From Aquilaria yunnanensis (lineage: Eukaryota; Streptophyta; Magnoliopsida; Malvales; Thymelaeaceae), in contig CM077593.1 in assembly GCA_039654915.1 (NCBI GenBank), forward strand, positions 79,898,501 through 79,962,500: 64,000 bases of DNA, given 5' to 3'. This document shows, one piece after another, positions 8,488 to 64,000 of the stretch. The notes under the pieces are model-generated. The model was not told the origin of the DNA. It did no database searches and saw only the letters and a list, made by a program, of their open reading frames with translations. The translations under genes and the position numbers were made by a program. The first letter of the stretch is position 1; each line of letters begins with the position of its first letter.

Positions 8488-8502
8488 CTCGGTGCATGTT
8501 TT

Positions 8503-9028: not shown

Positions 9029-9085
9029 GACATCCCGTAGTGGTAGACTACTTCGGATGATGATAGGGTGAGCCTGAAAGTATGG

Positions 9086-10021: not shown

Positions 10022-10218
10022 TCAGAGTTTACTACTTTATTCTTTTGTGGCAATTACCACATTGCTTAACCATTCAGGGTATTTGACCTCCTTGACGACA
10101 CCAGCGTCTAACAAGCGCTGGACTTCGGTTTTGACAAAGTTACTTTTATGGACCGAGATGCTCCGTTTCTTTTGCCGGACAGGTTTTGCCTCCGGACTTA
10201 CTTTAAGGCTATGCTGTA

Positions 10219-11571: not shown

Positions 11572-11630
11572 AGGCCCCGTGTCATCGCGAGGATGCGTAT
11601 TTCGGGCCGAAAGTCTGGGACACTCAAAGC

Positions 11631-24168: not shown

Positions 24169-27100
24169 TCATTCATTCAACCCAGTGCTCCCATTCTCGT
24201 GAAACTCCTCATTTTCTTCCGTGTCACTATCATCGGATATAAACTCTTCCTCATCATCTATATCGTCATTAGATCCCCTCTCGTCAAGTACATCTTCTTC
24301 AATATCATCACCGACACCTGGGTCAGCTAACTCCTCAACTGGGTCATCTTCAATTCTTTGACAACTCATGGATCCACTGTCTTGATAAACGTCATCCTTG
24401 TCAACAATTGCATACTAGATTATCCATCTAGGTTTTATCTTCATAACAATTGACCACCCATTTTTTTCACGTGACTTTGTCGGATATGGTGTGTAGTAAA
24501 CTTGGTCAGCCTGTGATGCTAGAATGAAAGGATCAAACTTCTGATATCTGCGGCTATCCCGAATCTCAACTAACCCAAACTGTTTATGCATTCGAGTTCC
24601 ACGTTCAGGTGTTGGGTCAAACCAGTTGCACCTAAACAAGACAACATTCTTATGTGGATAGCCAGGATATTCGAGTTGAATGACTTCTTCTAATATACCA
24701 TAAAAATCACCTGCAACTTCGCTTGAACCCATGCTTCATATGCAAACTCCACTATTAAATGTTGATTTGTCCTTGCCCCATTCACTTATGTGAAACTTGT
24801 ACCCATTTGTAAAATAAACCGGCCATGTCTCTACCCGACGTGAGGGTCCACATGCAACATCCCACAAGATGTTATCGACAATATTGTTACCTAGCTCATA
24901 AACCTATGCAAAACATTTTCATTTTAGGACAATATATCTGGAAGTTTATAACTTAACATATTGCAATACATAGTGACTAAAAGCACACGTACATAGTGTC
25001 GAAGCTAGCTTGAGAAATTGTTTTTAATGTGTATGTCCATCTCAGACATGGTTATATCGGGAGCAGTTTCCCTTACCATGTCCATAAACATACTGTGAGC
25101 AAATACAGAAATGATCAAAATATGTTAGTTTTGTCAGATGATTAATCCTGAACTTCAAAATAATCAAAGTACTGGATGATCATGAACGATGACTTACTTT
25201 AGATATGGCCTGATCTCATCACAGTTTAGAAGAACGTATGTGGTTGCAAGTCTGAGTTCATCATCCGTGAGGAATCTATATCTACATGCACCATATGGAT
25301 GTCCCGGACAGGTGAATATGGACCACAACTCACCATTACATGGGACAGGACCACATTCATTATTTCGCGGTACTCAGTTCATCATAGAGGGAACATGGGA
25401 TTCAAAGTAATGAGAGCAAAATATGGAAGTCTCCTCTATAAGGTATGCTCCACATATCGATCCCTCAATATGAGCAGTATTAGAAACCTTCATTTTTAGG
25501 TCATGCATGCACCGCTCAAATTTATACATCCATCGGTACTGAACAGGTCCTCTAACCCTTGCTTCATATGGCAAGTGAACTGGGAGATGCTCCATGACAT
25601 CAAAAAACCCGGGAGGAAAAATTCTTTCAAGCTTACAAATTATAATTGGAATATTGGCCTCCAACGCCAACAAGTGATTATCATGCAGCTCTAGAGAGCA
25701 CAAGTCTCTAAAGAATAGACTTAACTCTGTTAATGGCTTCCATATATTCTCGGGAAGAACTTCAAGGGCAATGGGAGGAAGCCTTTGCATCATAACATGG
25801 CAATCATGACTCTTCATGCCATACATATTGCAACCAGAGGTATCAACACATCTCCCAAGATTCGAGGCATATCCATCAGGGAGTCATAAAGATTTTACCC
25901 AAGCGATCACATCTTGCCTTTGGTTAACATCAAATGTGAACCTCGCCTTTGGTTTGAATGAACGACCATCATCAAGTAGAACCATGTTTAACGCCGGCCG
26001 ATAACAATAAATTTTGAGGTCCTTCCGTGCTTTAACATTATCTTTCGTTTTGTTCTTAACATCTATCACAGTATTCCATATATTCTCAAACACGTTCTTC
26101 TCAATATGCATGACATCAAGATTATGTCGGATTAAGTTCGTGGCCCAATATGGTAACTCCCAAAAAATGCTTCGCTTCGTCCAATTATGTGATTTCCCAT
26201 AATCGCACGGGCGATGTTGTGGACCATCGTTAGCAATTGATGGAATCTAGGAGATTCTTTCAAATATAGCCTCACCTGATAAGCGATCGGGAGGCAATGA
26301 CTTCTCTGATTTCCCCTTCTTGAAACAAGTACAATTTCTTCTATATGGGTGGTTCCGGCCAAGAAATTGCCGGTGACAGTCGAAAAATGAAAATTTTTCG
26401 CCATACTTAAGTTGGAATGCCTTACTTTTTCCCATACAAATGGGGCAAGACAATCGCCCAAGTGTCATCCATCCTGATAGCATGCCATAAACCGGAAAGT
26501 CATTAATGGTCCACATTAATGCTGCTCGCCAAATAAAATTTTCTTTTAATGACACATCCCATATTTCAACGCCATCAAACCACAGATGTCGTAGCTCTTC
26601 TATTAGAGGTTGTAGATAAACATCAATCTTATGATTTGGGCTACGTGGACCTGGAATCAACAACGAAAGGAACATATAGGGTTTTTTCATGCACATCCAA
26701 GGGGGAAAATTATACGGAGTAACGATAACAGGCCAACAAGAGTATTGTTTTCCAAATGGTCCAAAAGGGGTAAATCCATCGGCACACAACCCCAATCTGA
26801 CATTTTGTGCTTCCGAAGCAAACCATGGGTAGGTCCGATCAAAATGTTTCCAAGCTTCACCATCTAATGGATGTTTTATAACACCTGGGAACTGTGTTTG
26901 TTCCTTATGCCACCTCATCTGCTCTGTTGTTGACATTGACGCAAATAAGCGTTGCAGACAAGGGCTTAGTGGTAAATAATGCATGGTTTTTCTCGGTCGA
27001 TCTTTACCACAACCTCCCTTTTTTGGCTTATATCTCTTAGCTCCACAGTACTTACAAATACGCAGACTACTTTCATCTTTCCAGAACAACATACAATCAT

Positions 27101-27779
27101 TCATACAGACGTCAATCTTCTGGTGAGACAGACCCAACTGCGAAACTAATTTCTTCGTTTCAAACCAATTTGATGGCATCTTACTATCTGTAGGTTGAGT
27201 CTCCTTCATCAGTTGGGCAATGCCATTAAAACATGCTCGTGACATATGATACTCAGACTTAAGGTTAAGAAGACGGACAGCAGCAGATAACTCAGAATGA
27301 TTTTCGCACCCATCCCATACAGGAGTTGATGCTGAATTCAATAGATTAAAAAAATTTTATGCACTTTCATTCGGCTGCGCAACATTGTCTTCCGGAAATT
27401 GTGACAAATTAGGCCCAACGGCATCTAATACCATCCTTTCGTATGGATTCGTCGAAGACCCCTATTCAAACTGATCAAAGCCAGACACACCCGGGTCTGT
27501 ATTTGAAGCTACAGTAAATGGCTCTCCATGAGTGGTCCAATTCAAGTAAAAAGGCTTAAACCCCCATTTGTACAGATGAACTCTAACCTCGTCACACTCT
27601 TTAAATCGCAAATTCTTACACTTCCGACAAGGACAGCGAATGCATAACCCGCTTATTGTTTCAGGATGAGAGACAGCAAATGATATAAATTCATCAACCC
27701 CAGACTCCCACTCTTGTGTGTACCCCGTTCGCCTAGGCAAGAAACTGTTACTATACATCCAACTACGGCCCGACTCCAT
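24169..27779 (-). pseudogene. TNP2-type CACTA transposase with in-frame stops
   Basis: This is the catalytic protein for excision and insertion. From the N-terminus: a transposase-associated domain (27779-27462, MESGRSWMYSNSFLPRR, RCPCRKCKN), the TNP2 core (27341 to about 25890; CMLFWKDESSLRICKYCGAK, RTYPWFASEAQNVRLGLCAD, GFTPFGPFGKQYSCWPVIV, LSGWMTLGRLSCPICMGKSK, NLDVMHIEKNVFE), a DUF4218-like domain (25826-25374; DVMEHLPVHLPYEA, WMYKFERCMHDLK) and a DUF4216-like part (24732-24415; VVLFRCNWFDP). An acidic tail lies at 24369-24169. From 27779 to 25374 the frame stays the same but is cut by stops at 27462-27464, 27357-27359, 26247-26249 and 25884-25886. Introns are likely between the DUF4218 and DUF4216 parts. 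Confidence 0.85.
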
Positions 27780-27894: not shown

Positions 27895-28880
27895 TATGTG
27901 CCATGCATATAAACATTATTACTATCAGTATTATTATGGGTATTATTATTACTCAAATTTAAGTACTATGCGTATTATTGTACTTGGTTGTATAATTATT
28001 GTAATTATTGTGTATAATAACAATAAGAATTTTTTTAAGTATTGTCAAAGTTATTCTTATTTATATAATAATAATAAGTATAATTATTATAATTATTATT
28101 ATGACTGTGTCATGCATATAAGTATAATAATTATGATATAATAATTATTATTATATACATTACTAGTATCAGTATTATTATGGGTATTATTATTACTCAA
28201 ATTTAAGTACTAAGGGTATTATTGTACTTGGTTCGATAATTAAGTTAATTATTATGTATTATTACTATTTGTGTTTTTTTAGTAGTATAAATATTATTCT
28301 TATATAATAATAATAATAATAATTATTATTATTATTATTATTATGACTGTCCCATGCATATAAGTATAATTATTATGATGACATAATAATAATTACATAC
28401 ATTATTATTATCATTATTATTATGGGTATTAATATTACTCAAATTTAAGTACTATGGTTATTATTGTACTTGGTTGTATAATTATTTTAATGATTATGTA
28501 TAATTAGTATTTGTATTTTTTTAAGTATTGTAAAAGTTATTCTTATATAATAATAATAATTATGAGTTATTATTATTATTAGAATGACTGTGCCATGCAT
28601 ATAAGTATAATTATTATGATGTAATAATAATAAGTAATTAAATACATTATTTTTATCATTATTATTATGGGTATTAATATTAGTGAACTTTAATTACTAT
28701 GGGTATTATTGTGCATGCTTCTATAATTATTTTACTTACTATGTATAATTAGTATTTGTATTTTTTTTAAGTCTTATTATTATTATTATTTAAGTAATTA
28801 CAATTATTATTATTATTATTATTATTGTTGTTGTTGTTATGACTATGCCATGCTTATAAGTAAAATAATTATGATGTTCC
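27895..28880. repeat. AT-rich tandem array, about 240-bp period
   Basis: The word CATGCATATAAG (or a close variant) recurs near 27901, 28111, 28353, 28595 and 28849. Each is followed by TGGGTATT, TACTTGGTT-type and TTGTATTTTTTTAAGT segments in the same order. The units are padded with (ATT)n runs of variable length. The array lies upstream of the TNP2 gene within the CACTA element. Confidence 0.8.
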
Positions 28881-28928
28881 ATGCATGTAAGTAAAATTAT
28901 TTTTAGTATGATTATTATTATAATCATC

Positions 28929-28971
<43 letters not shown>

Positions 28972-28975
28972 ATAT

Positions 28976-29015
<40 letters not shown>

Positions 29016-29390
29016 CATATATATTGTTATTATTAAACATATTATTACATTATTATTATTCACATTCTTATTTGGTACAAATAATTTTGTTTTTTATTAT
29101 AAATATAATAATCATTATCATTAATATTATTACTATTTTCCTAATATTTTTTCATATTATTCTTATTATTAAGCGTATAATTATATTATTATTATTCTCA
29201 TTCTTATTATTCTTTTGATTAACGTAATTATTATTACTTAGTTTCATTATTATAATAATTTTCTAACTTACTACTACTACTACGAAGTATTCTTAATAGT
29301 AATTATTACTATTATTATGTTTATAATATTGGGTACATCTTACAATAATAATAATAATAATAATTATTTTATTATTATTATTATTACCCA
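28881..29390. repeat. (ATT/AAT)n microsatellite tract
   Basis: Long runs of ATT and AAT switch strand polarity near 28930-29010, forming inverted (AAT)n/(ATT)n blocks. The poly-Asn/poly-Ile open frames here are compositional only. Confidence 0.9.
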
Positions 29391-41586: not shown

Positions 41587-43061
41587 TGCTGCACTCTAGC
41601 AGTTGTAACCCAAGTGTAGGTTGTCGCAAGTAATAAAATCTTGAGAGTCCGAGTGTCAAACCACAGGGAAGTAAATTAAGAAATACAAATTATAGATTTT
41701 TTATAAAGAAAGTTTTCATGAAAGGTGTGAACAAGTATTGATTAAAAATTCAAATTTAATTAAAATAGCTAAGGTTAAGGGATCCACTTTTAGTATGTCG
41801 ATTATGATTAATTTTAGCCCATCTTACCACTCAATTGAGATCCACACATAAAGGAGCTCCCAATCAGGGAATTTAGATAGTATTAACTTTCATTGATCTT
41901 AAAAAGTCAATGCTTGCTAATGGGTTCAAGTATCCGTCATGCCAACCTTTGTCAACAATAACTTAAGATTCCAATATAGCCAACAGAGCCATGTTCTATA
42001 GAGGGAATCAAGTAGCTTTTATGCCAATGATTGACTATGATGAATCAAGACTTCTACTTAACAAGGAAAGAAATTAAATAGATTAAGGAAGAAAATACCG
42101 TTAACGTTGTGATCCATTCAAATCAATCATAACCTTTATACCAAAAGCTTCACCCTTTCACCTTAGTAAAAGGAAGATTAGTTAGTCATGATAAAAGTAA
42201 ACATGTAGAAAGATGAAATGAACATGGGTTAAAATATCAAAAGAAGAACAAGAAGAAGAACGAGAAAATATTTTAACAAAGTTTTGGTATTAAAAACTAG
42301 AACAAAACTAAAGAAGAAAAGCTAAAAATGATACAAGAACATAAAGGAGGCCTAAGAAGTGGCATCCCTTCACCCTCCCCCTAAGGTGCTTATTTATAGA
42401 GTTTTGGGGGTGGGTGAAATGGTCAAATAGTAAAATGTAGGTAAATACAAATCAACAAAGGCGGGCTGTAACTTCTTTTAATTTTTTTACTATTGTACAC
42501 ATCGAATCAGCCTTTCCTCAAAGCATGAGATTTGTAGATCTCTTCTTGAGCTTCAAATCTCATGCTCATTCAAATCGGACATCGGTAACTCAAGTTATGA
42601 ATTTTCTACCAAAACTACTCTTCAGCACACGAAAGAATGAATGGTCTCATCTATAATCAGATTTTGGCAATGAAAATGATCAAACTAGCTCGTGGAATGA
42701 AGCAGAGTTGAAGATCTATGTGTTGGCTTTTAAATGAATTTGAAATCACTCAGTTCGTACATCTACAGCTCCAGATATGATTTTTCTCATGAAAGGTCAC
42801 AAAATGATGATTTTACCTACATAAAAAAATAATTATTTAATATTAATGAATAGTGAAAACATGTATGAACAGTAAAATATGCATATAAATAGTGAAACAT
42901 GCATATGAATAGTAAGTTGGTGAATAGTGACTCGGTGTATAGTAAAAAGCATGAATAGTAACCCAATGGAAAAAATACTCAGAATAGATAAATTAATTAT
43001 ACTCAAAATGTATAATGATAATTTAAACCTTTAACAGCAATACACTTATGAATATTCATCA
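41587..43061 (-). repeat. Athila-like 3' LTR
   Basis: The LTR is 1475 bp and clearly homologous to 47766-49262 but diverged by many substitutions and small indels. A TATA-like box reads on the minus strand near 42390-42398. Confidence 0.88.
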
Positions 43062-43072
43062 TACCCCCCCTC
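43062..43072 (-). promoter_or_regulatory. Polypurine tract of the Athila-like element
   Basis: On the minus strand a run of GAGGGGGGG abuts the 3' LTR. Confidence 0.65.
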
Positions 43073-44335
43073 AACCAGGTTGTTGCTAATCCTAAGCAAG
43101 TAAAGTGATGTACTAAATAAATACTCAAGTTTCATCAATTATTTTCTACTATCAATCTCTATACAATAGATCATAAATTATTCAAGTAATGAGCATCAAA
43201 ATTATTGTTCTAAAAAATTGCCCAAATTTCATAACGATTTATGCAATTCTCTACCACTCAAACAAGAAAAAAAGTGCAAAAGATTATGAGTTGCTGAGTG
43301 CAGTAAGTGTGTGACTGACAATTAGAAGTGTCTAAAAGATTTCAGTAAATCATACCAACGCTTGCAGCTTATCATAACAAATCTAATTCAAAACCGTTGC
43401 TTTGGCGGTCTTTCACACTGTTACACTATAAAAGATTCTCTCTTTTTTTTTTACTTTGGCTCAAGCCTTATTTGGAGAACCCTAGTAACAGGCAACCATT
43501 TCCAAGAATGAACATCGCTTGTTGTTTTTTTTTTTTCATTTTCCAAGTCTTTTCAACACTTCTTGGTGTTGTTTTTGTTTTTTATTAAATTTTTTTTTTA
43601 TTCAAATCAAGCTACGATATGGTTCATTAAAAGTCCCAATAGCCACATAGTTGGAGTATTCTCTGAAATCTAAAAGACAATAAAGATTTTTAGCATGTGT
43701 AAAAATATCAGCAATTCATAACTTAAACATCCTAATCCCTTGTCAAAGTGACTAAAATTTGACTAAATCAATATGTCAAATAAGATTTCAAACATGTAAA
43801 ATTTAATGTAGCTCATCACCTCAACAATTTCATCATCAAGCATATAAATTTTTAAGATAGAAAACATATATTACTAGTGAGTGTGTCATTTTTTACTGGT
43901 TTAAAAACCTACTAAAAAAAATGTTATGACTAGAATGTCTAATAAGATGCATCTCAAAAGTAAAATTACTCCTTACTCAACCATCCTAAACTAAGGGCTT
44001 TGTCCAATGGTTTTAATATCAGCATGAGAATAACTACCCTAAAAGAAGAAAAAAAAATTGTGTCAACTATCCCTCCTCCCAACCGGATTAAGACATTGTC
44101 TCCAATGTCAAAATATAGATAAGAAGAGTGCAGAAGAAATTACCTAAAATGATAGTTATTGAATATGAAAATCCTGAAATAACATACACCAAAATAAAAA
44201 AAATGCTGATAATAAAACTAAAAAATAAGATAAATAGATCCACAAGTCTGATTGCTCTCTTCCACAATGCTTCATCACTTATGAAGGATTAAAAACCTGT
44301 AAAGAAAAAAAAATAACAAAAATAAAACGACATTA
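43073..44335 (-). other. Non-coding 3' part of the Athila-like element
   Basis: AT-rich with no domains. A segment around 44066-44105 (CCTCCTCCCAACCGGATTAA, then GACATTGTCTCCAATGTC) is the kind of sequence often seen before the 3' LTR of such elements. Confidence 0.5.
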
Positions 44336-45078
44336 ATGTACAGTAGTTGTGATTGTGGCTCACATCTTCCACTGGTTTTACGTCCAATAACGGCTTCAAC
44401 ACCTACTATGAGTCCGAGATATGCTTCCCATCCAGTTTTCATACATACTGGCAAACAAGGTCGTTTAAAGTCAGATTCCTAAGACTGTAACGCTCTCATT
44501 TTCTATGAAAAATTCTCCATAAACCAAGAAGTCCACGTTGTACTAATCCACAAGAATGCATTTCAAGAGTCAATCGGATATCATCTAAAGAATCCTGATC
44601 ACACAGGCCATCTTAATGAATTTTCTTTTATCTTCTCGATTATCAGACATTGCCCTTAAAGAACGACATTTAGTATCACAATTTTATCTACCACATTTGT
44701 GATAGACACGTAACCTTTTTGCTCTTCGCTTTTTGGCATAAGCGCTTTTGCCTAAGCCAAGCATGCGAGGCACAAATGCATCCAAAATTTCACTAGTCAA
44801 ACGGACCTTAGCTTCAATTAACCAACACACATCTTTAGGAACACCTTTGTGCATCAAAACTCTAAATCTTTCACATCTACCTTGATAAATCCTTTTAAGA
44901 ACATTTATTGGGAGAGAGGGAAAGTAATTTCGCAAAGCAAAAAGAATAGAATCCATTAGTGAGAAAAAAATTGAGAGAAGAGAGAAAGAAATCAGTTATT
45001 ATGGGAAACTGAGATAACCAACTTGAGGGCCACGGAGTACCGTATCCGCCACTTAACCGAAAAGAAATGGATCCTAAT
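44336..45078 (-). pseudogene. Fourth copy (D) of the cysteine-rich gene, inside the Athila-like element
   Basis: This is a full-length but broken copy of the gene repeated at 61.7-64.0 kb, with similarity from the leader motif (minus strand, 45062 downward) to the conserved 3' block ending TGTACAT near 44336. The ORF (44956-44684) covers the first 90 codons: SLPINVLKRIYQGRCERFRV, then KSAYAKKRRAKRLRVYHKCG. The first Cys of the cluster is Tyr and a stop replaces the next Trp codon. Downstream codons still show NCDTKC, so the third and fourth Cys remain. It has the same orientation as gag-pol and starts right where the integrase fragment ends, near the usual env-like position of Athila elements. 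Confidence 0.75.
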
Positions 45079-45704
45079 TTTTGACAATTTTCAAAAGCTT
45101 TGTAAAATGCATGTACGTCTTTAAACAAAGAGGACTAGTAAAATTCAGACTACAAAATCTTTACAGCTGTTTTCTTTAACAAAAAATGTCCTCCGCATGT
45201 TTCAAAATGAAAAAATTCAATGACACTTTTTACCCTATCCTCAGGTATGCATCTCGTAAATATCTGGTTAGGACAGTATTTGAAAAGATAAGAATCATCC
45301 CAATAAAAATTTATCACCTTATGTAAAAATTTCTTCTTATCTTGGATACTCCATTGAGCTGGTATCCGTCCTGCCACCAAAAAGTTGACAATATTAGCAA
45401 ACCAATGTACTATAGTGACAGAGAATAAAAATTTATCAAGAAAATAACCATTTATAGGTGTAGCCTCAATTGATGAATCTATTGTCAGTCTTGACAAATA
45501 ATCAGCGACAACATTTTTCGTGCCCTTCTTATCCTTAATCATAATGTTGAACTCTTGGAGTAATATAACCCAGCGTATCGGCCTTGATTTAGCGTGTTTC
45601 TTTAACATTAGGTATTTCAATTCTTTGGGTAAAAGTTTCAACTCAATTGTGTGAATTTTATTTTGCTCTTCAATTTTTTGTTTCCAACACGTGTTTTCTT
45701 TCAC
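45060..45704 (-). pseudogene. RNase H tail and integrase N-terminal part of the Athila-like element
   Basis: The 184-codon frame begins with a few foreign codons and continues PIRWVILLQEFNIMIKDKKG and NVVADYLSRL, the end of RNase H. Then come WFANIVNFLVAGRIPAQWS, YWDDSYLFKYCPNQIFTRC and the H2C2 start (FHFETCGGHF). After a stop at 45150 the finger continues in another frame to ENCQKLGSIS, where the captured gene copy begins. The DDE core is absent. Confidence 0.8.
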
Positions 45705-46124
45705 CTATGAAGAATCAAGTAATGAACATATGTTAGATTTATCCTGATCCATTTGTATAATCGATTTAAATGAATTAACTAGATAATTTTTTAGAGGATC
45801 AGAGATACTTCTTTCTTCAATGTGGTTTTTCCCAATAGTGTCAATGAGGCAAACTTTTTCACTTTCATCTTCTTTTTCAGGTGGCTGCATAAGCAAGTTG
45901 AAAATATTTAACTCCAATGTCATATTCCCAAATGCCAGCTTCATCAATCCATTCCTGCAATTAATCAAAGCGTTAGAGGTTACTAAAAATGGACGTCCCA
46001 AGATAACAGGTATTGAATTCTTGATTTTCACTGGTGGAGTGTCCAAAATAATAAAATCCACAGGACATATGAATTTATCAACTTGGACTAACACATCTTC
46101 AATGATTCCTCTGAGCACTTTCAC
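45705..46124 (-). pseudogene. Athila-like protease region
   Basis: The frame reads VLRGIIEDVLVQVDKFICPV, VDFIILDTPPVKIKNSIPVI and LGRPFLVTSNALINCRNGL, the C-terminal half of an Athila-type protease. The active site should be just upstream (46125-46250), in a poorly preserved stretch. It is followed directly by the RNase H tail, so the whole RT is deleted. Confidence 0.8.
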
Positions 46125-46429
46125 TTATCCTTCAGCAAGTAAAAGAGTTACTTTGGTTGGTTTTAACTCGCCCAAATTTAGTTTTTGGTAAAATGAATAT
46201 GGAAGTAAATTTACACTAGCCCCAAGATCAAGTAATGCTTGCTCAATTTTATGTTCTCCAATGAAACATGATGGGAAACATATGATGCATATCCTTGAGA
46301 TTGTTGAAAACTTTGTTGGGTGTGCAAAGATGGTTGTGAAGGTTAAGCATGATTATCACTTCTCCAACTAAAATTTGGATGATTCCTCCAACCAAGATTG
46401 TAAGTTTGTGAGTATGAATTTTGGGTTGG

Positions 46430-46801
46430 CTACTTGAAATTGTTCAATGCATTGACTTGTTCATGGAAACATTCTTTAAAAGAGGGCAAGGTTGGGCAAT
46501 TGCCAGTGGAATGGTCAATGGTCTCACAAATGTGACAAACAACTTCTTCAACAGATTTTAATTGACCAATTTTCTTCATTTCTAAAGCCTCATCCTTTTT
46601 AGCTAGAGATGCAAGTTTTGCTTGGAGGTCATTATCTTCCTTGAGATGATATATGCCTCCACTAGATGCAGGAGATTGAGTCTTACCTACAGCCTCGTAG
46701 GTACCAACGGTGTCCCAATTCTGTGCATTCTCTACTAGTAAATCTAGGTAATTCATTGCCTCATCAGGATCTTTATCTTCAAATATTCCATTGCACATCA
46801 T
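46430..46801 (-). pseudogene. Athila-like gag C-terminal part
   Basis: It begins MMCNGIFEDKDPDEAMNYLD and contains a knuckle CHICETIDHSTGNC (C-x2-C-x5-H-x4-C, one residue longer than usual between the second Cys and His) after LKSVEEV. More N-terminal gag sequence (46802-47460) is coding-like but full of stops. Confidence 0.75.
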
Positions 46802-47499
46802 TTACACTATTTTTATTTCCCTAAGTGTCAAACCTACATAAAAATGTCAGACTAATCTCCATGTTTCAAAACCATGGTGTACGCATGTGTTAAGTAAAAC
46901 TTTGTATATATCCCAACATTGGTAAAAAGTTTCTCCTGGTTTTTGTGTGAAAGTGGTGATTTGTCTTTTGAAAGAATTTTTTCTATGGGAAGCAAAAGAT
47001 TTTTTTCAAAAATTGTTGTTACAATTCATCCCATGAATTAACGAAGCCTAGCCTAAGATTCTGTAGCTAAGTTTTAGCTTTATCTTTTAAAGAAAAATGA
47101 TAAAGCTTAAGCCTAATGATTTTCATACCACAGTTTAGGTTGTTATATGTGTGGCAGACTTCTTCAAATTCCCTCAAATGCAAGTAAGGATTTTCGGAAT
47201 CAAAGCTGTGAAAAGTTAGTAAAAGTCGAATATACCAAGCTTGAAGTTGAAGTGAGCTGCATTAGGAGGAAAGATTAAACAAGATGGAGTGTTATTTCTT
47301 ATGGGGTTCATGTGTTCTCTAAGTGTCCTAGGTCAATCTTGGTCATTATGTAGAGAATGGTTATCTTCTTGGTTATTAATTTGTTCAACCATGTTTGAAG
47401 AAGATGAAGATTCTCTAACCAGTCTACCACTTGATGTACGTGACCAAGCTTTCATGCATTAACAAAATAATAAAAAATAAATAAATATGAATAACAAGT

Positions 47500-47670
47500 T
47501 AGGTAGGAGGCTTAGCCTTTCATTTAATAATAATAAGAAAAATAAATAAAAAGAAAACAATATGAACAAAAAATAAACGATAGGAGGCTCAGCCTTCCAT
47601 TCAAAAAAAATATATAAAGAAAAATAAAATTAAAAAAAATTAAGAGGTAGGAGGCTCAACCTTCCATATG
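47500..47670. repeat. Short direct repeats in the Athila-like 5' leader
   Basis: TAGGAGGCTCAGCCTTCCAT or a near copy occurs at 47504, 47581 and 47648, separated by poly-AT spacers. Its function is unknown. Confidence 0.75.
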
Positions 47671-47740
47671 ATGAATAAAAAAAATGAAACAAAATAAAAA
47701 GAACAAAAAGAAAAAAATTGAACTTATAATCTAATTTTAC

Positions 47741-47763
47741 TTCCCTGGCAACAGCGCCAAAAA
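47741..47763 (-). promoter_or_regulatory. Primer-binding site of the Athila-like element
   Basis: The minus strand reads TTGGCGCTGTTGCCAGGGAA next to the 5' LTR, close to the tRNA-Asp type primer site common in Athila elements. Confidence 0.7.
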
Positions 47764-47765
47764 CT

Positions 47766-49262
47766 TGCTGTACTCTAGCAGTTGTAACCCAAGTATAGGT
47801 TGTCGCAAGTAATAAAATCTCGGGAGTCCGAGTGTCGAACCACAGGGAAGTGAATTAAGAAATAAAAATTACAGATTTATGATAAATAAGGTTTTTGTGA
47901 AATGTGTGAACAAGTGTTGATTAAAAATTCAAATTCAATTAAAATAACTAAGGTTAGGGGAATCCACTTTTAGTATATTGGTTATGATTAATTTTAGCCC
48001 ATCTTACCACTTAATTGGGATCCACACATAAAGGAGGTCCCAATCGGGGAATTTAGATAGTATTAACTTTTATTGACCTTAAAACGTCAATGCTTGCTAA
48101 TGGGTTCAAGTATCCATCAAGCCAATCTTTATCTACAATAACTCAAGATTCCAATATAGCCGGCAGAGTCATGTTCTACAGAGGGAATCAAGTAGCTTTT
48201 GTGCCAATGATTGACTATGATGAATCAAGACTTCCATTTAACAAGGAAGGAAGTTAAATAGATTAAGGAAGAAAATACTGTTAACATTGTGATCCATTCA
48301 AATCAATCATAACCTTTATAGCAAAAGCTTCACCCTTTCAACTTAGCAAAAGGAAGATTAGTTAATCATGATAAAAGTAAACAACATGTAGAAAGATGAA
48401 ATGAACATGGATTAAAATATCAAAAGAAGAAGAAAAAGAAGAACGAGAAAACACTTGGACAGAGTTTTGGTATTGAAAACTAGAACAAAACTAAAGAAAA
48501 AAAGCTAAAGATGATACATGAACATAAATGAGGCCTAAGAAATGGCATCCCTTGACTCTCCCCCCAAGGTGCCTATTTATAGAGTTTTTAGGGAGGGTAA
48601 AATGGTAAAAAAGTAAAATGTAGGTAAATATAAATCAACAAAGGCGGGCAGCAACTTCTTTTAGTTTTTTGACTATTGTACACATCAAATTAATCCTTCC
48701 TTAAAGCATGAGATTTTTAGATCTCTTCTTTAGCTTGGAATTGATAGCTTGCTCATTCAAATTGAACATCCGTAGCTTAAGTTATGATTTTTCTACCGAC
48801 ACTGCTCTTCAGCACATAAAAGAACGAATTGTCTCATCTATAATCAGATTTTAGCAATGAAAATGATCAAACTAGCTTGCAGGATAAAGCAAAGTTGAAG
48901 ATCTATATGTCAGCTTCATATGAATTCGGAATCACTCAGTTCTGACATCTGTAGCTCTAGATATAATTTTTCTCATGAAGGGTCGCCAAGTGATGATTTT
49001 ACGAACGTAAAAAAATAATTATTTAATATTAATGAATAATGAAAATGTGTATGAATAGTAAAGTACACATATGAACAGTGAAATATGCGTATGAATAGCA
49101 AGTTGGTGAATAGTGATTGGTGAATAGTAACTCAGTGAATAGTAAAAAGCGTGAATAATAACCCAATGAAAAAAGTGCTCAGAATAGAGACATTAATCAT
49201 ACTACTCAAAGTGTATAATGATGATTTAAACCCTTAACAGCAATACACTTGAGTATTCATCA
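47766..49262 (-). repeat. Athila-like 5' LTR
   Basis: The LTR is 1497 bp. Minus-strand TATAAATA lies at 48574-48582. Both LTRs carry a run of GAATAGTGAAA-type short repeats (49025-49160 here, 42845-42975 in the other). Confidence 0.88.
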
Positions 49263-56401: not shown

Positions 56402-59092
56402 ATGGAGTCCAAGATTGAAAGTATGGCAGAACAGATGAGACAATTGATGGAACTAATCAAGGGGAAAGCAACTCAAGTTCCCATCAAAGAAGCACAAGAT
56501 CCCACTTATCCTCCGGGATTCACTCCGCAACGAGTCTCAGTCCAAGAAAACCTGTTTCAGGAACCAGGACCGCCTGCTAGTGTTCACCTGAAACAAGACA
56601 CTGTATATGAAGAGAAAAAGACACCACCAAAGGAAGAAGGAGAATCTCAAAAACTCGAAACAATAGAGAAGAGACTACGAGCCATTGAAGGAGGTACTAT
56701 ATTCAGATCTCTCTCAGTGGATGACCTCTGCTTAGTGCCAGACGTCGTAATCCCTTCAGACTTTAAGGTGCCAGATTTCATGAAATACGATGGAACGAGT
56801 GATCCCATCACTCACATCACATTGTTTCTAAGGAGACTACAACCACTCACAAAAGATGAAAAGGTGTGGATTGCACTTTTTCAGGAAAGCCTCACAAAAT
56901 CAGCATTACAGTGGTATCTAAGTCAAGGTCCAAGAAACATTAAAACTTGGAATGACCTTGCACAGGCCTTCATCAGCAATTATAAACACATTATGGACTT
57001 GGCTCCGGATCACCAAACTCTCCAAAACATGGAGAAGAAAAAGCCAGAAACTTTCAAGGAATATGCCCAACGGTGGAGGGACTTAGCTGCACAAGTTCAG
57101 CCACCTATGACAGAAAGAGAAATGGTCACTTTGTTTGTCCAAACACTGAAGTACCCATATTATGACAAACTCATTGGCAATTCAGCAACTAATTTCTCTG
57201 ACGTAGTCATGTCTGGAGAAAGGATCGAACATGGGATTAGGACTGGGAAGATTGATGAGTCCTTTAGTGATCCTATGAAAAGAGGAGGACCATTTAGAAG
57301 AAAAGATGAAGAAATACAACAAATAGGACGAGGAAGAGGGATTCCCCTCGTGGGTACTGTGGCCACCGGACCTCGCCTATCCTATTCTGCCAACAGGTCC
57401 AATTATTATCCTACCAACAGGCCCAATGATTATCCTCCGAATAGGCCCAGTGATTATCCTCCCAATAGGCCCAACAATTATCCTCTCAACAGGCCTAATC
57501 AGTTACGGCCACCTGTTCCGACTCCTCCAGTACCTGCACAAAGACCAAGGGAAGTTTTTGCGCCAATTCCCATGACTTACACTGAGTTGTATCCAAAACT
57601 TATTGAAAGTCAACTTATCCGCCCAATTCCTACAAGGCCATTGGAACCCCCATATCCAAGGTGGTATGACCCCAACGTAACTTGCCCATATCATGATGGC
57701 ACAGTGGGTCATGGCCTAGAGAATTGCATAGCTTTGAAACGCATAGTCCAACAATTAATAGAGTCAAAGTGGTTGGACTTTTCTGATGAACCAAACGTCA
57801 CTCATAATCCATTGCCACCTCATCAAGCAAAACCAGTCAATATGATAGAAGAACACCGGCCGATGAAGAAGTCAGTCAACGATATCATAACCCCTATTAA
57901 GCATATATATTCATGCCTTGTGAAAGAAGGGATCATCATGAGCAAGCCTTCTTTTGGACATGAAGAAGTCGAGGATGAGGAATGGTGTGACTTTCATAAC
58001 AGTAAAAGTCATTCTATCCAGGAATGCTCAGAATTCCGTGAGAATCTACAAAAACTCATAGACTCCTCCCAACTCATCGTTTTTATGTCAGATAAAGATG
58101 ATGACGTAAATGTGATCATTAAAGAACAAGAAGTCAAGGCTATGCCAAGACCACTAGTCATACCAATCTCAAAACCTGCTCTTCAGCCTTTAAGAATTCA
58201 AGTCCCAAGGCCATTCCCATACAAATCAGACAAAACCGTTCCATGGAGCTATGATTACACTTCTAATATCACATCAACTCCGTTAGAAGTTGGGAGTATG
58301 ACTAGAAGTGGTAGGTGTTATTCTCCGGAGCAAATGAACAAACTCCAACAAGATAAGAACATTACAGACCCAACAAGTAGACCTCTTGATACAAATACAT
58401 CCAAAGAGCAAGAGATGCCTCGAGCAGTAACAGATGAACAAGCTACTGAGTTTCTCAAACTCATAAAACAAAGTGAGTACAGCATCGTTGAGCAGTTAAA
58501 CCACCTTCCAGCAAAGATTTCTATACTATCATTACTTCTAAGCTCTGATGCTCATCGAGAAGCCTTCCTCAAAGTCTTGAATAAGGCCTATGTTGAGCAA
58601 GATATTTCCGTGAATAATTTAGACCACCTCGTCAACAACATTACAGCGCAGAATCTCATCACATTCACTGACGATGAGATACCAGCAGAAGGAAGGGGTC
58701 ACTCTAAGGCTCTACATATTTCGGTTAAATACAAAGATCGAATTATGGCTAAAGTTCTTATTGATAATGGGTCAGCTCTAAATGTAATGCCACTTGAAAC
58801 CTTACACAAGCTTGGTATCGACCCATCATCCCTCAACAATAGTCATATCATTGTTCGAGCATTTGACGGGACGGATAGAAATATTGCTGGAGAAATAGAG
58901 CTACCAATAGGGATCGGCCCTTGTGTCTTCCACATCACATTCCAAGTTATGGATATTAATCCTTCTTATACTTGTCTGTTGGGCAGACCATCGATTCATA
59001 TGGCCGGAGCAATTCCCTCCTCATTACACCAAAAAAAGAAATTCATTTTTGAAGGAAAGAAGGCATTCTGCTATCACCTATATCAACGGTAG
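56402..59092 (+). CDS. Ogre-like gag-protease polyprotein
   Basis: This 896-codon frame is fully open. The N-terminus is a short coiled coil (MAEQMRQLMELIKG). A capsid-type Retrotrans_gag region follows at about residues 119-280 (KVPDFMKYDGTSDPITHITL, SALQWYLSQGPRNIKTWNDL, FKEYAQRWRDLAAQVQPPM). Residues about 330-360 are repeats of N-x-Y/D-Y-P-x-N-R-P. Two C-x2-H-type fingers lie at about 428-442 and 529-542. The aspartic protease near the C-terminus has the active-site segment VLIDNGSALNVMP (Asp788; D-N-G in place of D-S/T-G, usual in this lineage). The product would package RNA and mature Gag. A stop at codon 7 of an upstream in-frame ATG (56369) suggests the original start was slightly earlier. 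Confidence 0.85.
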   Translation: MESKIESMAEQMRQLMELIKGKATQVPIKEAQDPTYPPGFTPQRVSVQENLFQEPGPPASVHLKQDTVYEEKKTPPKEEGESQKLETIEKRLRAIEGGTIFRSLSVDDLCLVPDVVIPSDFKVPDFMKYDGTSDPITHITLFLRRLQPLTKDEKVWIALFQESLTKSALQWYLSQGPRNIKTWNDLAQAFISNYKHIMDLAPDHQTLQNMEKKKPETFKEYAQRWRDLAAQVQPPMTEREMVTLFVQTLKYPYYDKLIGNSATNFSDVVMSGERIEHGIRTGKIDESFSDPMKRGGPFRRKDEEIQQIGRGRGIPLVGTVATGPRLSYSANRSNYYPTNRPNDYPPNRPSDYPPNRPNNYPLNRPNQLRPPVPTPPVPAQRPREVFAPIPMTYTELYPKLIESQLIRPIPTRPLEPPYPRWYDPNVTCPYHDGTVGHGLENCIALKRIVQQLIESKWLDFSDEPNVTHNPLPPHQAKPVNMIEEHRPMKKSVNDIITPIKHIYSCLVKEGIIMSKPSFGHEEVEDEEWCDFHNSKSHSIQECSEFRENLQKLIDSSQLIVFMSDKDDDVNVIIKEQEVKAMPRPLVIPISKPALQPLRIQVPRPFPYKSDKTVPWSYDYTSNITSTPLEVGSMTRSGRCYSPEQMNKLQQDKNITDPTSRPLDTNTSKEQEMPRAVTDEQATEFLKLIKQSEYSIVEQLNHLPAKISILSLLLSSDAHREAFLKVLNKAYVEQDISVNNLDHLVNNITAQNLITFTDDEIPAEGRGHSKALHISVKYKDRIMAKVLIDNGSALNVMPLETLHKLGIDPSSLNNSHIIVRAFDGTDRNIAGEIELPIGIGPCVFHITFQVMDINPSYTCLLGRPSIHMAGAIPSSLHQKKKFIFEGKKAFCYHLYQR
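57385..57500 (+). repeat. In-frame NRP repeats in the gag-protease ORF
   Basis: About five units of 24-27 bases encode Tyr-Pro-x-Asn-Arg-Pro. They form a flexible Pro/Asn-rich linker between capsid and the finger region. Confidence 0.85.
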
Positions 59093-61690
59093 CAAAGACC
59101 AATTGACCTTCTCTTTTAAGTTGGTGTGACCCAAATGCCAAATATAACTAAAAATTGTGTGGCACTGAAACTCAAGGTCCAACAGTTGGCCGAGTTCAAG
59201 TTGCTAGGCCCGATATGATTGGTAATTGAAAGTGAAGATTTTGAGCTGGAATTACATTGATTTTGGAAGGGCTCCAAGTCAGATCTGACCTAACAGTTCG
59301 CACACACTTTTGAATGATAGGGAATCCTTTGAATAAACTTGTATCTTTGATAGCTTGCCAAAGTAATTTAATAGTAAAAATCTCCTAGATTTAGTCCAGA
59401 ATCTAGGGTGTAGTCTTTGTTAAATGGACACCTGGTATTCTTTTTCTGGTACAACAAAAAGATGTAATGTGTGCATTCTACCACTCTTTACCAAAAATTT
59501 CATTTTTACATCTATCTCTCACTCTTACACTACCCATTATTGCCATCACATTTTACTTTGTAAAAGATACTACTCCTGGGTAAAAATGAAAGTTAAGGGA
59601 GATTTGATAGTAGTGACCTTGAAAGTGCTTCCAAATCTAGTAAGAAGGATTTCAAATGTTGCACCTCAACCCTCAAAAGGAATTCACAGTGGTTATCAAC
59701 ATCCTTGCAAGAAGTCCGGGGTTAGCTTCCAAAGAAGTTAGCTTTCATATTAAATGGCTTCAATGGCCTCCCAATTCTCATAAATGCTCAACACAAGAAA
59801 ATGTTCTCAGTTCTCTGCAACACAAACTCCCAAAAAGAAAGAGAAATTCATCCCTTTCATCAAAAGATGACAAGGGAAAATTCAAATCCAAAATCAAAAG
59901 AGACTGAGAACAAATACGAGCAAGTAAAGCCACTTGAGTCATCTCACTTCAAGAGAGTTATCAAGTATGTCATCACCATAGCTCACACAAAAAAAAAACA
60001 AAAAAAAAAAGGAAAAAGGAAAATAAACGAAGCTCAAGTTAGAGCCAAAGAAAGAAAAAGAAAAAAAGTGAGCTATGGATTCTAGACTGAAAACCTGCAA
60101 ACGCGGTTTAGAAGACAAAAACAACCCTCAAGCCAAGCGTACATAAAGATTACAATAGTTGGGGGGCAACAGATGATGTCAAACTTTCTAGAAAACGTGG
60201 CAAGTTTGAGGTCATCACTATTAAATTTTTTACCATAATCAGATCTGCTCACGAGTAGCATTAAAAGACCCTTCTTTCACACCACTCAAACTTAACTTTA
60301 CTCAGACCTAATATTTACCTCTTAATATCATTCTCATTCAGCTAAAAGACTGCAAAAAACAAAAAAAAACATTCAAACTTAATTTTCCTCGCGCCTAACA
60401 GTTACCTCTCGATATCATCCTCATTCAGCTAAAAGGCTATCCTTGTGAATCATGTTTATACCTTATTGCCTTGCACAGTTTATGTCTTCGAGTTGGAAAG
60501 GGAAGAATGGCAGGATATTTTAATTAAAAACAAAGACCGTAAATTACTTTGTCAAGCTTTGCAAATTGATGAAAGTTTTTCTTTAAGGCCAAACCATTAT
60601 TCATTAATGTGTGTAGACTTAAAAGTGAGGAGATAGCTTGAGACTTTCTTTAAGAAGATGTGGTTCTTGTAAGAGAGATTTACGATCAAGTGCCATCACA
60701 AAGGTCTAGAAATGCTCGACCTTCTGTTAAAGGCGAGGTGATACCTTTTATCCACATAAACACCGTATTCAGGGGGGCAAAGTAGTCCCTACGAAGCATA
60801 AGAAGGGGACTGCCAACAAAGAAGCTCAATAGACAAGGGGGCAAGTTTTATGGATCAAAACTTGAGCTCAAGGAAGAGCAATCATTCAGACTATAACATG
60901 GGAATAAGTAAGTGTCGGCACGGCCACAAGAAAATGGGCAAAGAGACATTAGAAGATAAGCCTTCGATGATATGAAATCCATAACAGGGACAATTGTCCA
61001 GAGAGGCATAAAGTATAAGGCGGGTGAACATTAAAGAAATTGAGGCCAAAATTCAAGAACAAGTCAAGAAAAGGGGATTTTGAAAAAGAGTTGGGCTTTT
61101 GAGACAATGGACAATAGCTGGAAAGCATAAAGAGATTCAATGATAGTCCAAGAAGGCAATTACAAAGACGATCCAGTAAAGCAAAGATATGAAGAAATAG
61201 ATCCAAAACAAAAAAAAAAAGAAACATCAGTTACGCATGCTCTGCATTCATGCATTTCACATCATGCATGCATGGCTTTTACATAACAGGAATCAAATGG
61301 AAAGCATATCCGCAGCATGATTGCAGCAGTATAAGCTGACATCTCAATGACATCAGCTCTTACCAATCTATCACTGGATACACAGCTAATATACTGGACC
61401 CAGCCCCATCAGCAATTCAAGGATAAAGTAGACAATATTGTCAAAAGCCTGGCTACCGATTCAATAATCGAGGCTACACCTGGAAGGATAGGATTGATGC
61501 CAGCTTAACAGTATCCAAGATAAGAGATAGCTATGGTCAAAGATAAGGCAGACATCAAGAAATATTGTCGTTGAAAACTTTGTCAAAAGCGGACAAAAGA
61601 TTCAATAATCAAGGACTGGATCGATGTCAGCCGAATGAAATATCAAAGATAAGAAATATCATTCACATCAAAATAAAGTAGGATCCACTT
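59093..61690 (+). other. Non-coding region after the gag-protease ORF
   Basis: No RT, RNase H or integrase motif was found. Short frames at 59424-60085 and 60445-60636 have no domain. Purine-rich GGGGGGC runs at 60162 and 60774 could be polypurine tracts. Two imperfect tandem duplications lie at about 60288-60440 (unit ending ATTCAGCTAAAAG) and 61425-61680 (unit with GATTCAATAATC). Confidence 0.45.
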
Positions 61691-61691
61691 T

Positions 61692-61724
61692 TCCGGTTAA
61701 GCGGCGGATACGGTACTCCGTGAC
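61692..61724 (+). promoter_or_regulatory. Conserved leader motif, copy A
   Basis: A 33-base block with GGTTAAGCGGCGGATACGGT then ACTCCGT is shared with copy B (62530-62562) and copy D (minus, about 45062-45030). ACGG-TACT-CCGT can form a small hairpin. It lies in the predicted 5' leader. Confidence 0.6.
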
Positions 61725-61799
61725 TCTCAAGTCGGTTCTCTCAGTTGCCCATAATAACTAATTCTTTCCTCTCTTCTTTCTTTTACTTCCCTCTAGAAA

Positions 61800-62330
61800 A
61801 TGGATCCTACTTTTTCTGTCTTATGAAAATATTTTCCTTCTCTCCCAATGAACATTCTCAAAAAGATCTACCAAGTTCGCTGTGAACGATTAAGAGTTCT
61901 GATGCACAAAGGAATCCCTGAAGATGTGCGGTGGTTAATCGAAGCCAAGGTTCGTCTGGCAGGTGAAATCCCAGAGGCATTTGTGTCTCACATGCCTGGT
62001 ATAGGCAAAAGCTCTTATGCCAAAAAGCGAAGAGCGAAAAGGTTACAAGTCTGCCATAAATGTGGACGGTGGACTTGTAATACTAAATCTCGTTCTTTAG
62101 GGATGATCTCTGATAATCGAGAAGATAAAATACGATTCATTAAGAATGGCCTGAGTAAGGACTCGTTGGATGACATCCAATTGACTCTTGAGACGCATTC
62201 TTGTGGATCCGTGCAACGTGAACTTCTCGGTTTATGGACCATTTTTCATGAAGAACGAGACCGTTACAGTCCCGGGAATCTGACTTTAAATGACCCTGTT
62301 TGCCAGCTTGTAAGAAAACTGGATGGGTAG
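61800..62330 (+). pseudogene. Cysteine-rich gene, copy A (stop at codon 9)
   Basis: First of three tandem copies. The family ATG is at 61800, but codon 9 is TGA (61824-61826) where copies B, C and D have CGA. An internal Met at 61848 opens a 160-codon frame. Features: YAKKRRAKR (family positions 73-81), CHKC (85-88), Cys93, Ser at 97 where copies C and D have Cys, FIKNG (113-117), HSCG, EERDRYSPGNLTLNDPVCQ and an end at KLDG. Upstream it lacks the TATA box of B and C. The order of a basic tract, cysteine cluster and FI-x-x-G resembles flexivirus nucleic-acid-binding proteins. It could be a truncated protein or a dead copy. Confidence 0.7.
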
Positions 62331-62509
62331 CAAATCCTCGACTCATAGAAGCCGTTAATGCCGTTACTGGACGTAAATCAGTGGAAGATGTGAGCCACAG
62401 TCACAATTACTGTACATACAATTTATCATATTTGGAAAAATTTGCATTTTCTTTTGACAATAATGTACTTACTCCCATAAGTGTAATCGACACGTTATCC
62501 TTTCATCAC

Positions 62510-62516
62510 TATAAAT
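62510..62516 (+). promoter_or_regulatory. TATA box of copy B
   Basis: TATAAAT in the context CATCACTATAAATGCAT, about 105 bases before the ATG. The same context is found before copy C. Confidence 0.6.
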
Positions 62517-62620
62517 GCATGTTCTTCTTTCCGATTAAGCAGCGAATACGATACTCCGTAACTTCCAAAGTCGGTTGTTTCAGAGTCCTTTCCCTCATCC
62601 ATTAAATTCTTCTTTCATCA

Positions 62621-63169
62621 ATGGATTCTACTCTTTCTACCCTGCGAAAGTACTTTCCTTCTCTTCCAATAAATGTTCTTAAAAAGATCTACCATGCTAG
62701 ATGTGAAAGAATCAGAGTTCTTATACGCAAGGGCGTTCCTGACAATGTGAAGTGGATAATTGAAGCTAAGGTCCGTTTGGCTGGTGAAGTTCCAGATGCA
62801 TTTATGCCCCGCATGCCCGGTTTAGGTAAAAGCCGTTATGCCAAAAGGCGAAGAGCAAAGAGACTAGGCGTGTGTTATAAATGTGGGCGATGGAATTGTA
62901 ATACTAAATATCGCTCTTTAGGATACATCTCCACAAATCGTGAAGATAAAAGAAAATTCATTAAGAATGGCCTGCGTAAGGAATCTTTGGAAGATATCCG
63001 AGAGACTTTTGAAACGCATTCTTGTGGAAAAGTGCAAGGTGAAATTATCGGGTTATGGAGGACTTACCATAAAGAACGAGACCGTTACAGTCTTGGGAAT
63101 GTGACTTTAAACAACCCTGTTTGTCAGTTTGTAAGAAAACTGGATAGGAAGCAAATCCCCGACTTATAG
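62621..63169 (+). CDS. Cysteine-rich gene, copy B (intact; viral NABP-like)
   Basis: This intronless 182-codon ORF starts MDSTLSTLRKYFPSLP and ends KQIPDL. Residues 1-70 are likely alpha-helical and basic (RCERIRVLIRKGVPDNVKWI). Residues 73-81 are YAKRRRAKR, then Cys85, Cys88 and Cys93, with Tyr at 97 in place of the fourth Cys. FIKNG lies at 113-117, HSCG at 133-136 and ERDRYS at 152-157. The basic tract before a Cys-x2-Cys and the following G-x-I-S-x-N then FI-x-x-G match the layout of cysteine-rich nucleic-acid-binding proteins of carlaviruses and relatives, whose roles are RNA binding and silencing suppression. The C-terminal 60 residues have no viral counterpart that I know. No signal peptide or membrane segment is seen. 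Function in the plant is unknown. Confidence 0.65.
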   Translation: MDSTLSTLRKYFPSLPINVLKKIYHARCERIRVLIRKGVPDNVKWIIEAKVRLAGEVPDAFMPRMPGLGKSRYAKRRRAKRLGVCYKCGRWNCNTKYRSLGYISTNREDKRKFIKNGLRKESLEDIRETFETHSCGKVQGEIIGLWRTYHKERDRYSLGNVTLNNPVCQFVRKLDRKQIPDL

Positions 63170-63319
63170 AAGGCATTGAAGCCATTACTGGACATAAATC
63201 AGTGGAAGATGAGAGCCACAGTCATGATTGCTGTACATATAAGCTGTCATTTGTCTTTTCTTTTGACAATAATGTACTTGCTTCTGTAAGTGTAATTAAC
63301 GCATTATCCCTTTCATCAC

Positions 63320-63327
63320 TATAAATA
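63320..63327 (+). promoter_or_regulatory. TATA box of copy C
   Basis: TATAAATA in the same CATCAC context as copy B, 58 bases before the ATG. The leader motif of A, B and D is missing here, so the leader is shorter. Confidence 0.6.
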
Positions 63328-63384
63328 TGTGTTAGTTTCCTACAATCACTAATTTCTTTCTTCTCTTAAATACCTCCTTCATCA

Positions 63385-63942
63385 ATGGAGTCTTCTCTTT
63401 CCGCCCTACGAAAGTATTTTCCTTCCTTCCCAATAAATGTTCTTAAAAAGATTTATCAAGTTAGATGTGAACGATTCAGAGTATTTATGCACAAAGGCAT
63501 TCCTGATAATGTGCGGTGGCTAATCGAAGCTAAGGTTCGTTCAGCTGGTGAAGTTCTAGAAGCGTTCTTTCACCGTATGCCCGGCTTTGGTAAAAGCGCT
63601 TATGCCAAAAAAAGAAGAGCAAAGAGGCTAAGCGTTTGTCATAATTATGGATGGTGGATTTGCGGCAATAAATGTCATTCTCCAGGAGTGATCACCAGAA
63701 ATCGTAATGATAGAATAAGATTCATTAAGAATGGCTTACGTAAGGAATCTCTGGAAGATATCCGAGAGGTTCTTGAAGTGCATTCTTGCGGAATAGTGCA
63801 ATTTGAGATTGTTGGATTATGGATAATTCTCCAAAAAGAACGAGATCGTTATAGTCTTGGGAATCTGACTTTAAACGACCCAGTTTGCCAGTTTGTGAGA
63901 AAACTGGACAAACTGGATGGGATGCAAATCGCCGATTCATAG
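63385..63942 (+). CDS. Cysteine-rich gene, copy C (intact; viral NABP-like)
   Basis: This intronless 185-codon ORF starts MESSLSALRKYFPSFP. It shares the family plan with copy B: SAYAKKRRAKR at 71-81, Cys85, Tyr at 88 where the others have Cys, Cys93, Cys97, then HSPGVITRN and FIKNG. The Pro-Gly-Val-Ile-x-x-Asn segment after the last Cys is the closest of the four copies to the viral pattern. The end (ERDRYSLGNLTLNDPVCQ) is nearly the same as in A and B. The tail KLDKLDGMQIADS contains a small duplication. Loss of one cluster Cys may impair metal binding. Its neighbours are copies A and B on the same strand. Confidence 0.65.
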   Translation: MESSLSALRKYFPSFPINVLKKIYQVRCERFRVFMHKGIPDNVRWLIEAKVRSAGEVLEAFFHRMPGFGKSAYAKKRRAKRLSVCHNYGWWICGNKCHSPGVITRNRNDRIRFIKNGLRKESLEDIREVLEVHSCGIVQFEIVGLWIILQKERDRYSLGNLTLNDPVCQFVRKLDKLDGMQIADS

Positions 63943-64000
63943 AAGGCATTGAAGCCGTTACTGGATGCAAAATCAGTGGAAGACGTGGACCAAAGTCACG
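63943..64000 (+). repeat. Conserved 3' block after copy C, running off the window
   Basis: The sequence after the stop (AAGCCGTTACTGGATG, then ATCAGTGGAAGACG) matches the blocks after copy A (about 62350-62405), copy B (about 63180-63230) and copy D (about 44400-44345, minus). It probably belongs to the transcript's 3' part. Confidence 0.75.

Follow-up and report, generated by a model that had tools for sequence, protein, structure and literature searches.

The tandem array of small genes at the end of the window (here the whole stretch of 64,000 nucleotides of Aquilaria yunnanensis DNA that was analysed) is best explained as the rearranged and probably decaying remains of a Ty3/gypsy element, whose accessory open reading frame (ORF) encodes a homologue of the flexivirus nucleic-acid-binding proteins (NABPs) with a putative anti-silencing or transcriptional role. 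We assign to this reading a probability of roughly 0.7. That the NABP-like gene is an accessory gene of LTR retrotransposons can be held with high confidence, while the anti-silencing or transcriptional role of its product, argued by analogy, is more tentative and falls a little short of an even chance. The carrier elements are probably of the Ty3/gypsy, Athila type; for the family in the window, the Athila assignment is presumed from sequence traits. In other words, a sense ORF of a retrotransposon clearly matches the profile of a viral family of silencing suppressors and host-gene activators, and the two kinds of parasite appear to have an accessory gene in common. Two questions can accordingly now be tested, namely whether retrotransposons bring along silencing suppressors of their own, and what the origin of the flexivirus cysteine-rich proteins is.

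The array consists of three head-to-tail copies, termed A, B and C, all on the forward strand. A 300-nt reference was found three times, at 61799, 62620 and 63384 (identity 78% and 75%), which bears out the start spacing of 821 and 764 bases given in an earlier note on this DNA. Both B and C are 71% identical to copy A. As the same note had it, two copies are fully open, namely B (62621..63169, 182 aa) and C (63385..63942, 185 aa), and the basic tract, CxxC and FIKNG are present as described, with the PG-V/I segment visible in copy C. Copy A (61800..62330) has its ATG at 61800, meets a TGA at codon 9 (61824-61826), is open from 61848 to 62330 (160 aa) and ends with a TAG at 62328-62330, six codons ahead of the stop position of copy B. 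It is preceded by a leader (61689..61799, forward strand) that also lies between pol and the NABP-like ORF both in the contig L002 and in the element at 41587..49262, described below; L002 positions 1665-2435 and window positions 61689-62433 are 74.6% identical in blastn. A further block is common to units B and C only (62440..62517 and 63249..63326, forward strand, 86% identical); it ends in TATAAAT, located at 62510 and 63320, respectively, and no convincing match to it was found in the full window element or in L002. No LTR of the array itself was seen within the window.

The resemblance to carlavirus and other flexivirus NABPs, already proposed for these genes, was confirmed by a Pfam scan, by shuffle controls and by comparison with BFVD. 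In particular, copies A and B exceed the Pfam cut-offs of both Viral_NABP (PF05515, 23 bits) and Carla_C4 (PF01623, 20.9 bits), copy A with 26.7 and 27.3 bits and copy B with 27.6 and 25.6 bits, respectively, the match of copy B being limited to residues 60-91; copy C lies just under both cut-offs, with 22.7 and 19.1 bits. A profile search, whose scoring was confined to the 7,996 candidates with the most shared words, returned 653 relatives with the best 120 listed, and a second one returned 677, again with the best 120 listed. A length of exactly 182 aa recurs in 70 of the best 120 of the 653 relatives. When 122 family rows were scanned singly, 114 matched Viral_NABP and 107 matched Carla_C4 at E<=0.01, and the basic tract was present in 118. 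Ten relatives were considered in detail: nine match Viral_NABP with 23.1-35.0 bits, eight of these over approximately residues 33-40 to 116-127, and the remaining one, P0102, matches neither profile significantly. The alignment to the viral profiles covers residues ~33-127 at most, and some 55 C-terminal residues conserved within the family lie outside it, so that the previous remark on extra conserved C-terminal residues with no viral match stands.

With the structure model of an intact relative as query, named flexivirus proteins account for 12 of the 15 best BFVD rows, the other three being unnamed, and none appears at ranks 16-26; for copy B, chrysanthemum virus B ranks first of ten rows (E 0.34) and is the only flexivirus among those that are named. 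The models are poor (pLDDT 69, pTM 0.34-0.36), the TM-scores for the intact relative are low and none of its rows reaches E<=0.001, hence the BFVD result is mostly a sequence signal. On the strength of profile matches, the NABP-like proteins are very probably homologous to the flexivirus NABPs. The former description of the array as an endogenised RNA-virus gene is thus upheld as far as viral kinship is concerned; it names one of two possible directions of transfer. Domain labels of this kind already exist in databases, as P0014 carries the JGI name 'Viral nucleic acid binding'. Scans of IMG/VR identified no viral relative of the NABP-like proteins, and phage records gave no match to the family; a pattern match on a 93-kb IMG/VR contig was set aside, since this is far too long for a flexivirus genome.

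The genomic context of the gene is provided by a fourth NABP-like copy, which came to light when L002 was used as query against the window (tblastn 61% and 56%, E 9e-51). This copy, interrupted by stops and a frameshift, lies at 44409..44956 on the reverse strand, and its first open part scores 24.3 bits with Carla_C4, over the cut-off of 20.9, and 15.3 bits with Viral_NABP. It belongs to a degraded LTR retrotransposon of 7,676 bases (41587..49262, reverse strand), bounded by an LTR pair with TG..CA ends and by GACAT on both sides as target-site duplication. Following the orientation of the element, the 5' LTR (47766..49262) is succeeded by the primer-site-like TTTTTGGCGCTGTTGCCAGGGA, by gag-like remains with broken frames (46433..47261), in which a CxxC..H..C knuckle-like sequence was recognised by eye, by protease-like remains (45708..46352) with the sequence DLGASVNLLPY, also recognised by eye (Asp_protease_2 E 0.086, under the cut-off), and by pol remains (45057..45704) comprising the RNase H end and the integrase H2C2 region, which match the L002 integrase ORF at 57% over 129 aa (E 2.5e-45). 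The fourth copy comes next, and the 3' LTR (41587..43061) is preceded by the purine-rich GGTTGAGGGGGGGTA. The two LTRs are 87.6% identical over 1500 columns (K2P 0.118). Nothing over the Pfam cut-offs was found for the gag-like, protease-like or pol remains, no reverse transcriptase was seen in the element and most of its integrase is missing. The fourth copy is therefore a sense ORF of a bounded element, placed between pol and the 3' LTR as expected for an accessory ORF; its neighbours are retroelement pol, leader and LTR, and not the coat protein gene beside which a positive-strand RNA virus would carry it. Array and window element have leader and ORF in common (80.8% over 750 columns) and appear to share a pol-deletion junction as well; given these common features, the array most likely derives from the subfamily of the window element.

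The above-mentioned L002, a 3,330-base MAG contig, was the one locus found when bacterial genomes were scanned, and it has a retrotransposon arrangement of the same kind. It contains an integrase ORF (rve, Integrase_H2C2), the leader, an NABP-like ORF that is intact and 186 aa long, and a purine-rich tract. The ORF scores 34.1 bits with Viral_NABP and 20.4 with Carla_C4, the latter just below the cut-off, and the integrase shows 99.7% identity, across 386 aa, with the Melia azedarach 'Transposon Ty3-I Gag-Pol polyprotein'. Pol precedes the ORF; no reverse transcriptase was seen in L002 and no 3' LTR was identified. A 3' splice-site-like sequence at L002 1646-1661, immediately ahead of the leader, suggests that splicing may yield the RNA from which the NABP-like ORF is expressed. 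The contig (DAIEQH010000041.1, 1-3330) is filed as a Candidatus Nomurabacteria MAG and is plant retrotransposon DNA almost identical to that of Melia azedarach, that is, contamination.

Fused gene models can be annotation errors, yet they reveal the neighbours of an ORF. A search for long gene models returned only proteins of ~251-798 aa, with 59 hits, all with a source name; being selected by length, these 59 are fused gene models and are not informative on solitary ORFs. According to the Pfam labels in the database, 15 of them carry retroelement domains only (one by protease alone), 28 carry only domains of the type of LOG, a cytokinin-activating protein (in four of them PF18306 is the sole such label), 4 carry both and 12 neither. 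When Pfam is combined with BLAST to the L002 integrase and to a LOG piece, retroelement sequence is found in 28, LOG in 35, both in 7 and neither in 3, and 56 of the 59 models thus contain retroelement and/or LOG sequence. They come from ten genera (Citrus, Melia, Acer, Xanthoceras, Populus, Rhamnella, Orobanche, Primulina, Henckelia and Diospyros), which belong to the rosids and asterids. The Ty3/gypsy order of reverse transcriptase, RNase H and integrase is found among these relatives in P0148, with RVT_1 at 63-219, H2C2 at 348-405 and rve at 426-490, its NABP part being called by the database. Four scanned models with all three parts (P0195, P0197, P0200 and P0202) have the order integrase, NABP, LOG. 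In a tree of 76 rows, genera cluster, with 11 label changes against a minimum possible of 8 and a shuffled mean of 44.1 (0 of 200 shuffles as low), a clustering that is inflated by near-copies. The deep forks of this tree are weak, its 19 unnamed rows are a hand-picked subset, and rows with few aligned positions had been omitted beforehand, including all those of Primulina, Henckelia and Diospyros, 7 of 25 from Citrus, 1 of 6 from Populus and 1 of 2 from Acer.

As regards the state of the array, all four family cysteines are kept in 102 of 121 scorable family rows, and copies A, B and C are among the other 19, each with one of them missing (C97S in A, C97Y in B and C88Y in C, in copy-B numbering). 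The cysteine pattern pointed out in the earlier note is present, with the correction that every window copy is without one family finger cysteine. P0001 and P0002, the nearest relatives of A and C, keep all four; in P0103, which is close to B and C, one is missing. Values of dN/dS (NG86), which are rough because dS is near 1 in several pairs, amount to 0.33 for A-B, 0.19 for A-C and 0.35 for B-C, and, versus the distant locus L002, to 0.18 for A, 0.24 for B and 0.26 for C, the changes relative to L002 falling mostly on third positions. The frames therefore evolved as protein, under purifying selection. The finger cysteine lost in each copy and the two early stops of copy A suggest that the array is now probably decaying.

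The view that the copies have become a small family of plant genes with promoters of their own is not supported as it was worded, since the ORF sits in an LTR retrotransposon of the window and adjoins pol in other plants. More specifically, a solitary plant gene family that descends from an endogenised flexivirus gene and has no tie to retrotransposons would account for the NABP homology, for the purifying selection and for the TATA-like boxes ahead of B and C, which lie in a block that the element was not seen to contain; it is nonetheless very improbable, as it leaves aside a fourth copy within a bounded LTR element of the same window, the retroelement sequence in 28 of 59 long gene models and the pol that adjoins the ORF in L002. 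Just as improbable is convergence, that is, a chance profile match produced by the basic tract and the cysteines. The shortness of the match in copy B would fit such an origin, and one of four shuffles keeping the basic tract and the four cysteines still scored 16.4 bits with Carla_C4; this is, however, under the cut-off, the Viral_NABP match was lost in all four, none passed any cut-off, and in eight of the nine Viral_NABP-matching relatives the match extends from about residues 33-40 to 116-127. Full shuffles matched neither profile in four out of four cases.

Other explanations accept the retrotransposon and differ in what became of the gene or in what it does. One is that a retrotransposon gene was later co-opted, so that A, B and C are a cluster of host genes with promoters of their own. 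The promoter-like block of units B and C, absent from element and L002, the low dN/dS between copies and the intact close relatives P0001 and P0002 speak in its favour, but the two early stops in copy A and the loss of a finger cysteine from every copy render it quite unlikely. The other takes the protein for a nucleocapsid-like RNA chaperone that serves replication of the element, and not for an anti-silencing factor. Basic finger proteins can act as RNA chaperones, and the location of the ORF within an element would suit this function; on the other hand, a knuckle-like sequence already exists in the gag remains and suppression or activation is what has been described for the viral homologues, and we regard a chaperone as unlikely, less so than co-option.

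Under the preferred reading of the array as the remnant of a Ty3/gypsy element with an accessory gene, a sense gene between pol and the 3' LTR would encode a basic C4-finger protein of ~182 residues, which the basic tract would bring into the nucleus and which would bind nucleic acid. RNA silencing of the element would then be lowered and/or host genes turned on, in the way in which carlavirus p12 serves its virus. The LOG that some lineages have captured downstream might, more speculatively, raise active cytokinin and favour dividing cells, leading to inherited insertions; the LOG partner suggests an element possibly acting on host cytokinin. A broader and doubtful idea is that a single accessory gene has moved between the LTR retrotransposons of plants and positive-strand RNA viruses, the retrotransposon form of which, sometimes joined to LOG, would be an anti-silencing and pro-proliferation cassette from which the flexivirus suppressor gene may descend.

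Like the flexivirus NABPs or cysteine-rich proteins, for example p12 of chrysanthemum virus B, the NABP-like proteins have a basic tract before a C4 finger, with a colinear match of up to ~90 residues, and are encoded by the 3'-most gene. Unlike them, they are ~182 aa long, have conserved N- and C-terminal parts beyond the match and are retrotransposon-borne; their last finger spacing is also shorter than that of the viral proteins. Athila-like elements with LOGL4-like sequence were reportedly described by Steinbauerova et al. in 2011. These elements resemble the NABP and LOG gene models in having LOG sequence in the 3' region, and they are not known to contain an NABP-like ORF. The literature search, which did not extend to that study, found no paper linking a retrotransposon ORF to flexivirus NABPs.

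In published work, p12 of chrysanthemum virus B is described as a transcription activator in the nucleus and a silencing suppressor in the cytoplasm (PMC7588395), the cysteine-rich proteins of mandariviruses as dependent on NLS and finger motifs (PMC12172455), and NABPs as accessory genes in alphaflexiviruses with a patchy distribution in betaflexiviruses (PMC12115993, PMC4472227). Extra ORFs in sense orientation, located between pol and the 3' LTR, are a known kind, which a 2020 review calls env-like and with which the NABP-like ORF agrees in place and orientation; the env-like ORFs are described there with transmembrane segments (PMC7264820), and the NABP-like ORF differs in encoding a basic finger protein that is homologous to viral NABPs. 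According to this review, most extra ORFs of plant LTR retrotransposons are of unknown origin and the antisense ones are without viral similarity (PMC7264820). Orchid Ty3/gypsy elements have an AlkB-type ORF, likewise an accessory domain also encoded by flexiviruses, which differs from the present case in domain, position and lineage (PMC9289625). Other papers consider recombination with an unknown virus as a possible source of an antisense ORF in Retand (a 2025 study, PMC11963269) and, speculatively, a modulation of silencing by another extra ORF in sunflower (PMC11728184). An endogenous flexivirus replicase sequence is known in cucumber (PMC3136472).

A LOG sequence fused or adjacent to the NABP-like ORF was observed in models from Orobanche, Citrus, Acer, Rhamnella, Primulina, Henckelia and Diospyros (P0152, P0183, P0197 and others). 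Judging by its sequence, the partner is a real LOG relative, the Acer copy matching At2g37210 with E 4.8e-58; LOG is absent from the window and from L002 (best E 0.22). About 65 bases past the TAG stop of the NABP-like ORF are conserved, at 62331-62410 and after B, C, the fourth copy and the L002 ORF. This segment is open in frame in L002, and P0054, P0183 and P0199 run through it; stop readthrough towards LOG is possible.

Elsewhere in the window, an open gag-protease frame of ~895 aa lies just upstream of the array (56405-59089, forward strand; Retrotrans_gag E 2e-11), and a further Ty3/gypsy pol region with several open frames, 28% to the L002 integrase, is located at 7264-12113 on the reverse strand. 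Long open frames at 25374-27356, on the reverse strand, may represent a CACTA-type transposase, and an ATT-rich simple repeat of ~1 kb occupies 28248-29253, where GC falls to 0.19 over 2 kb.
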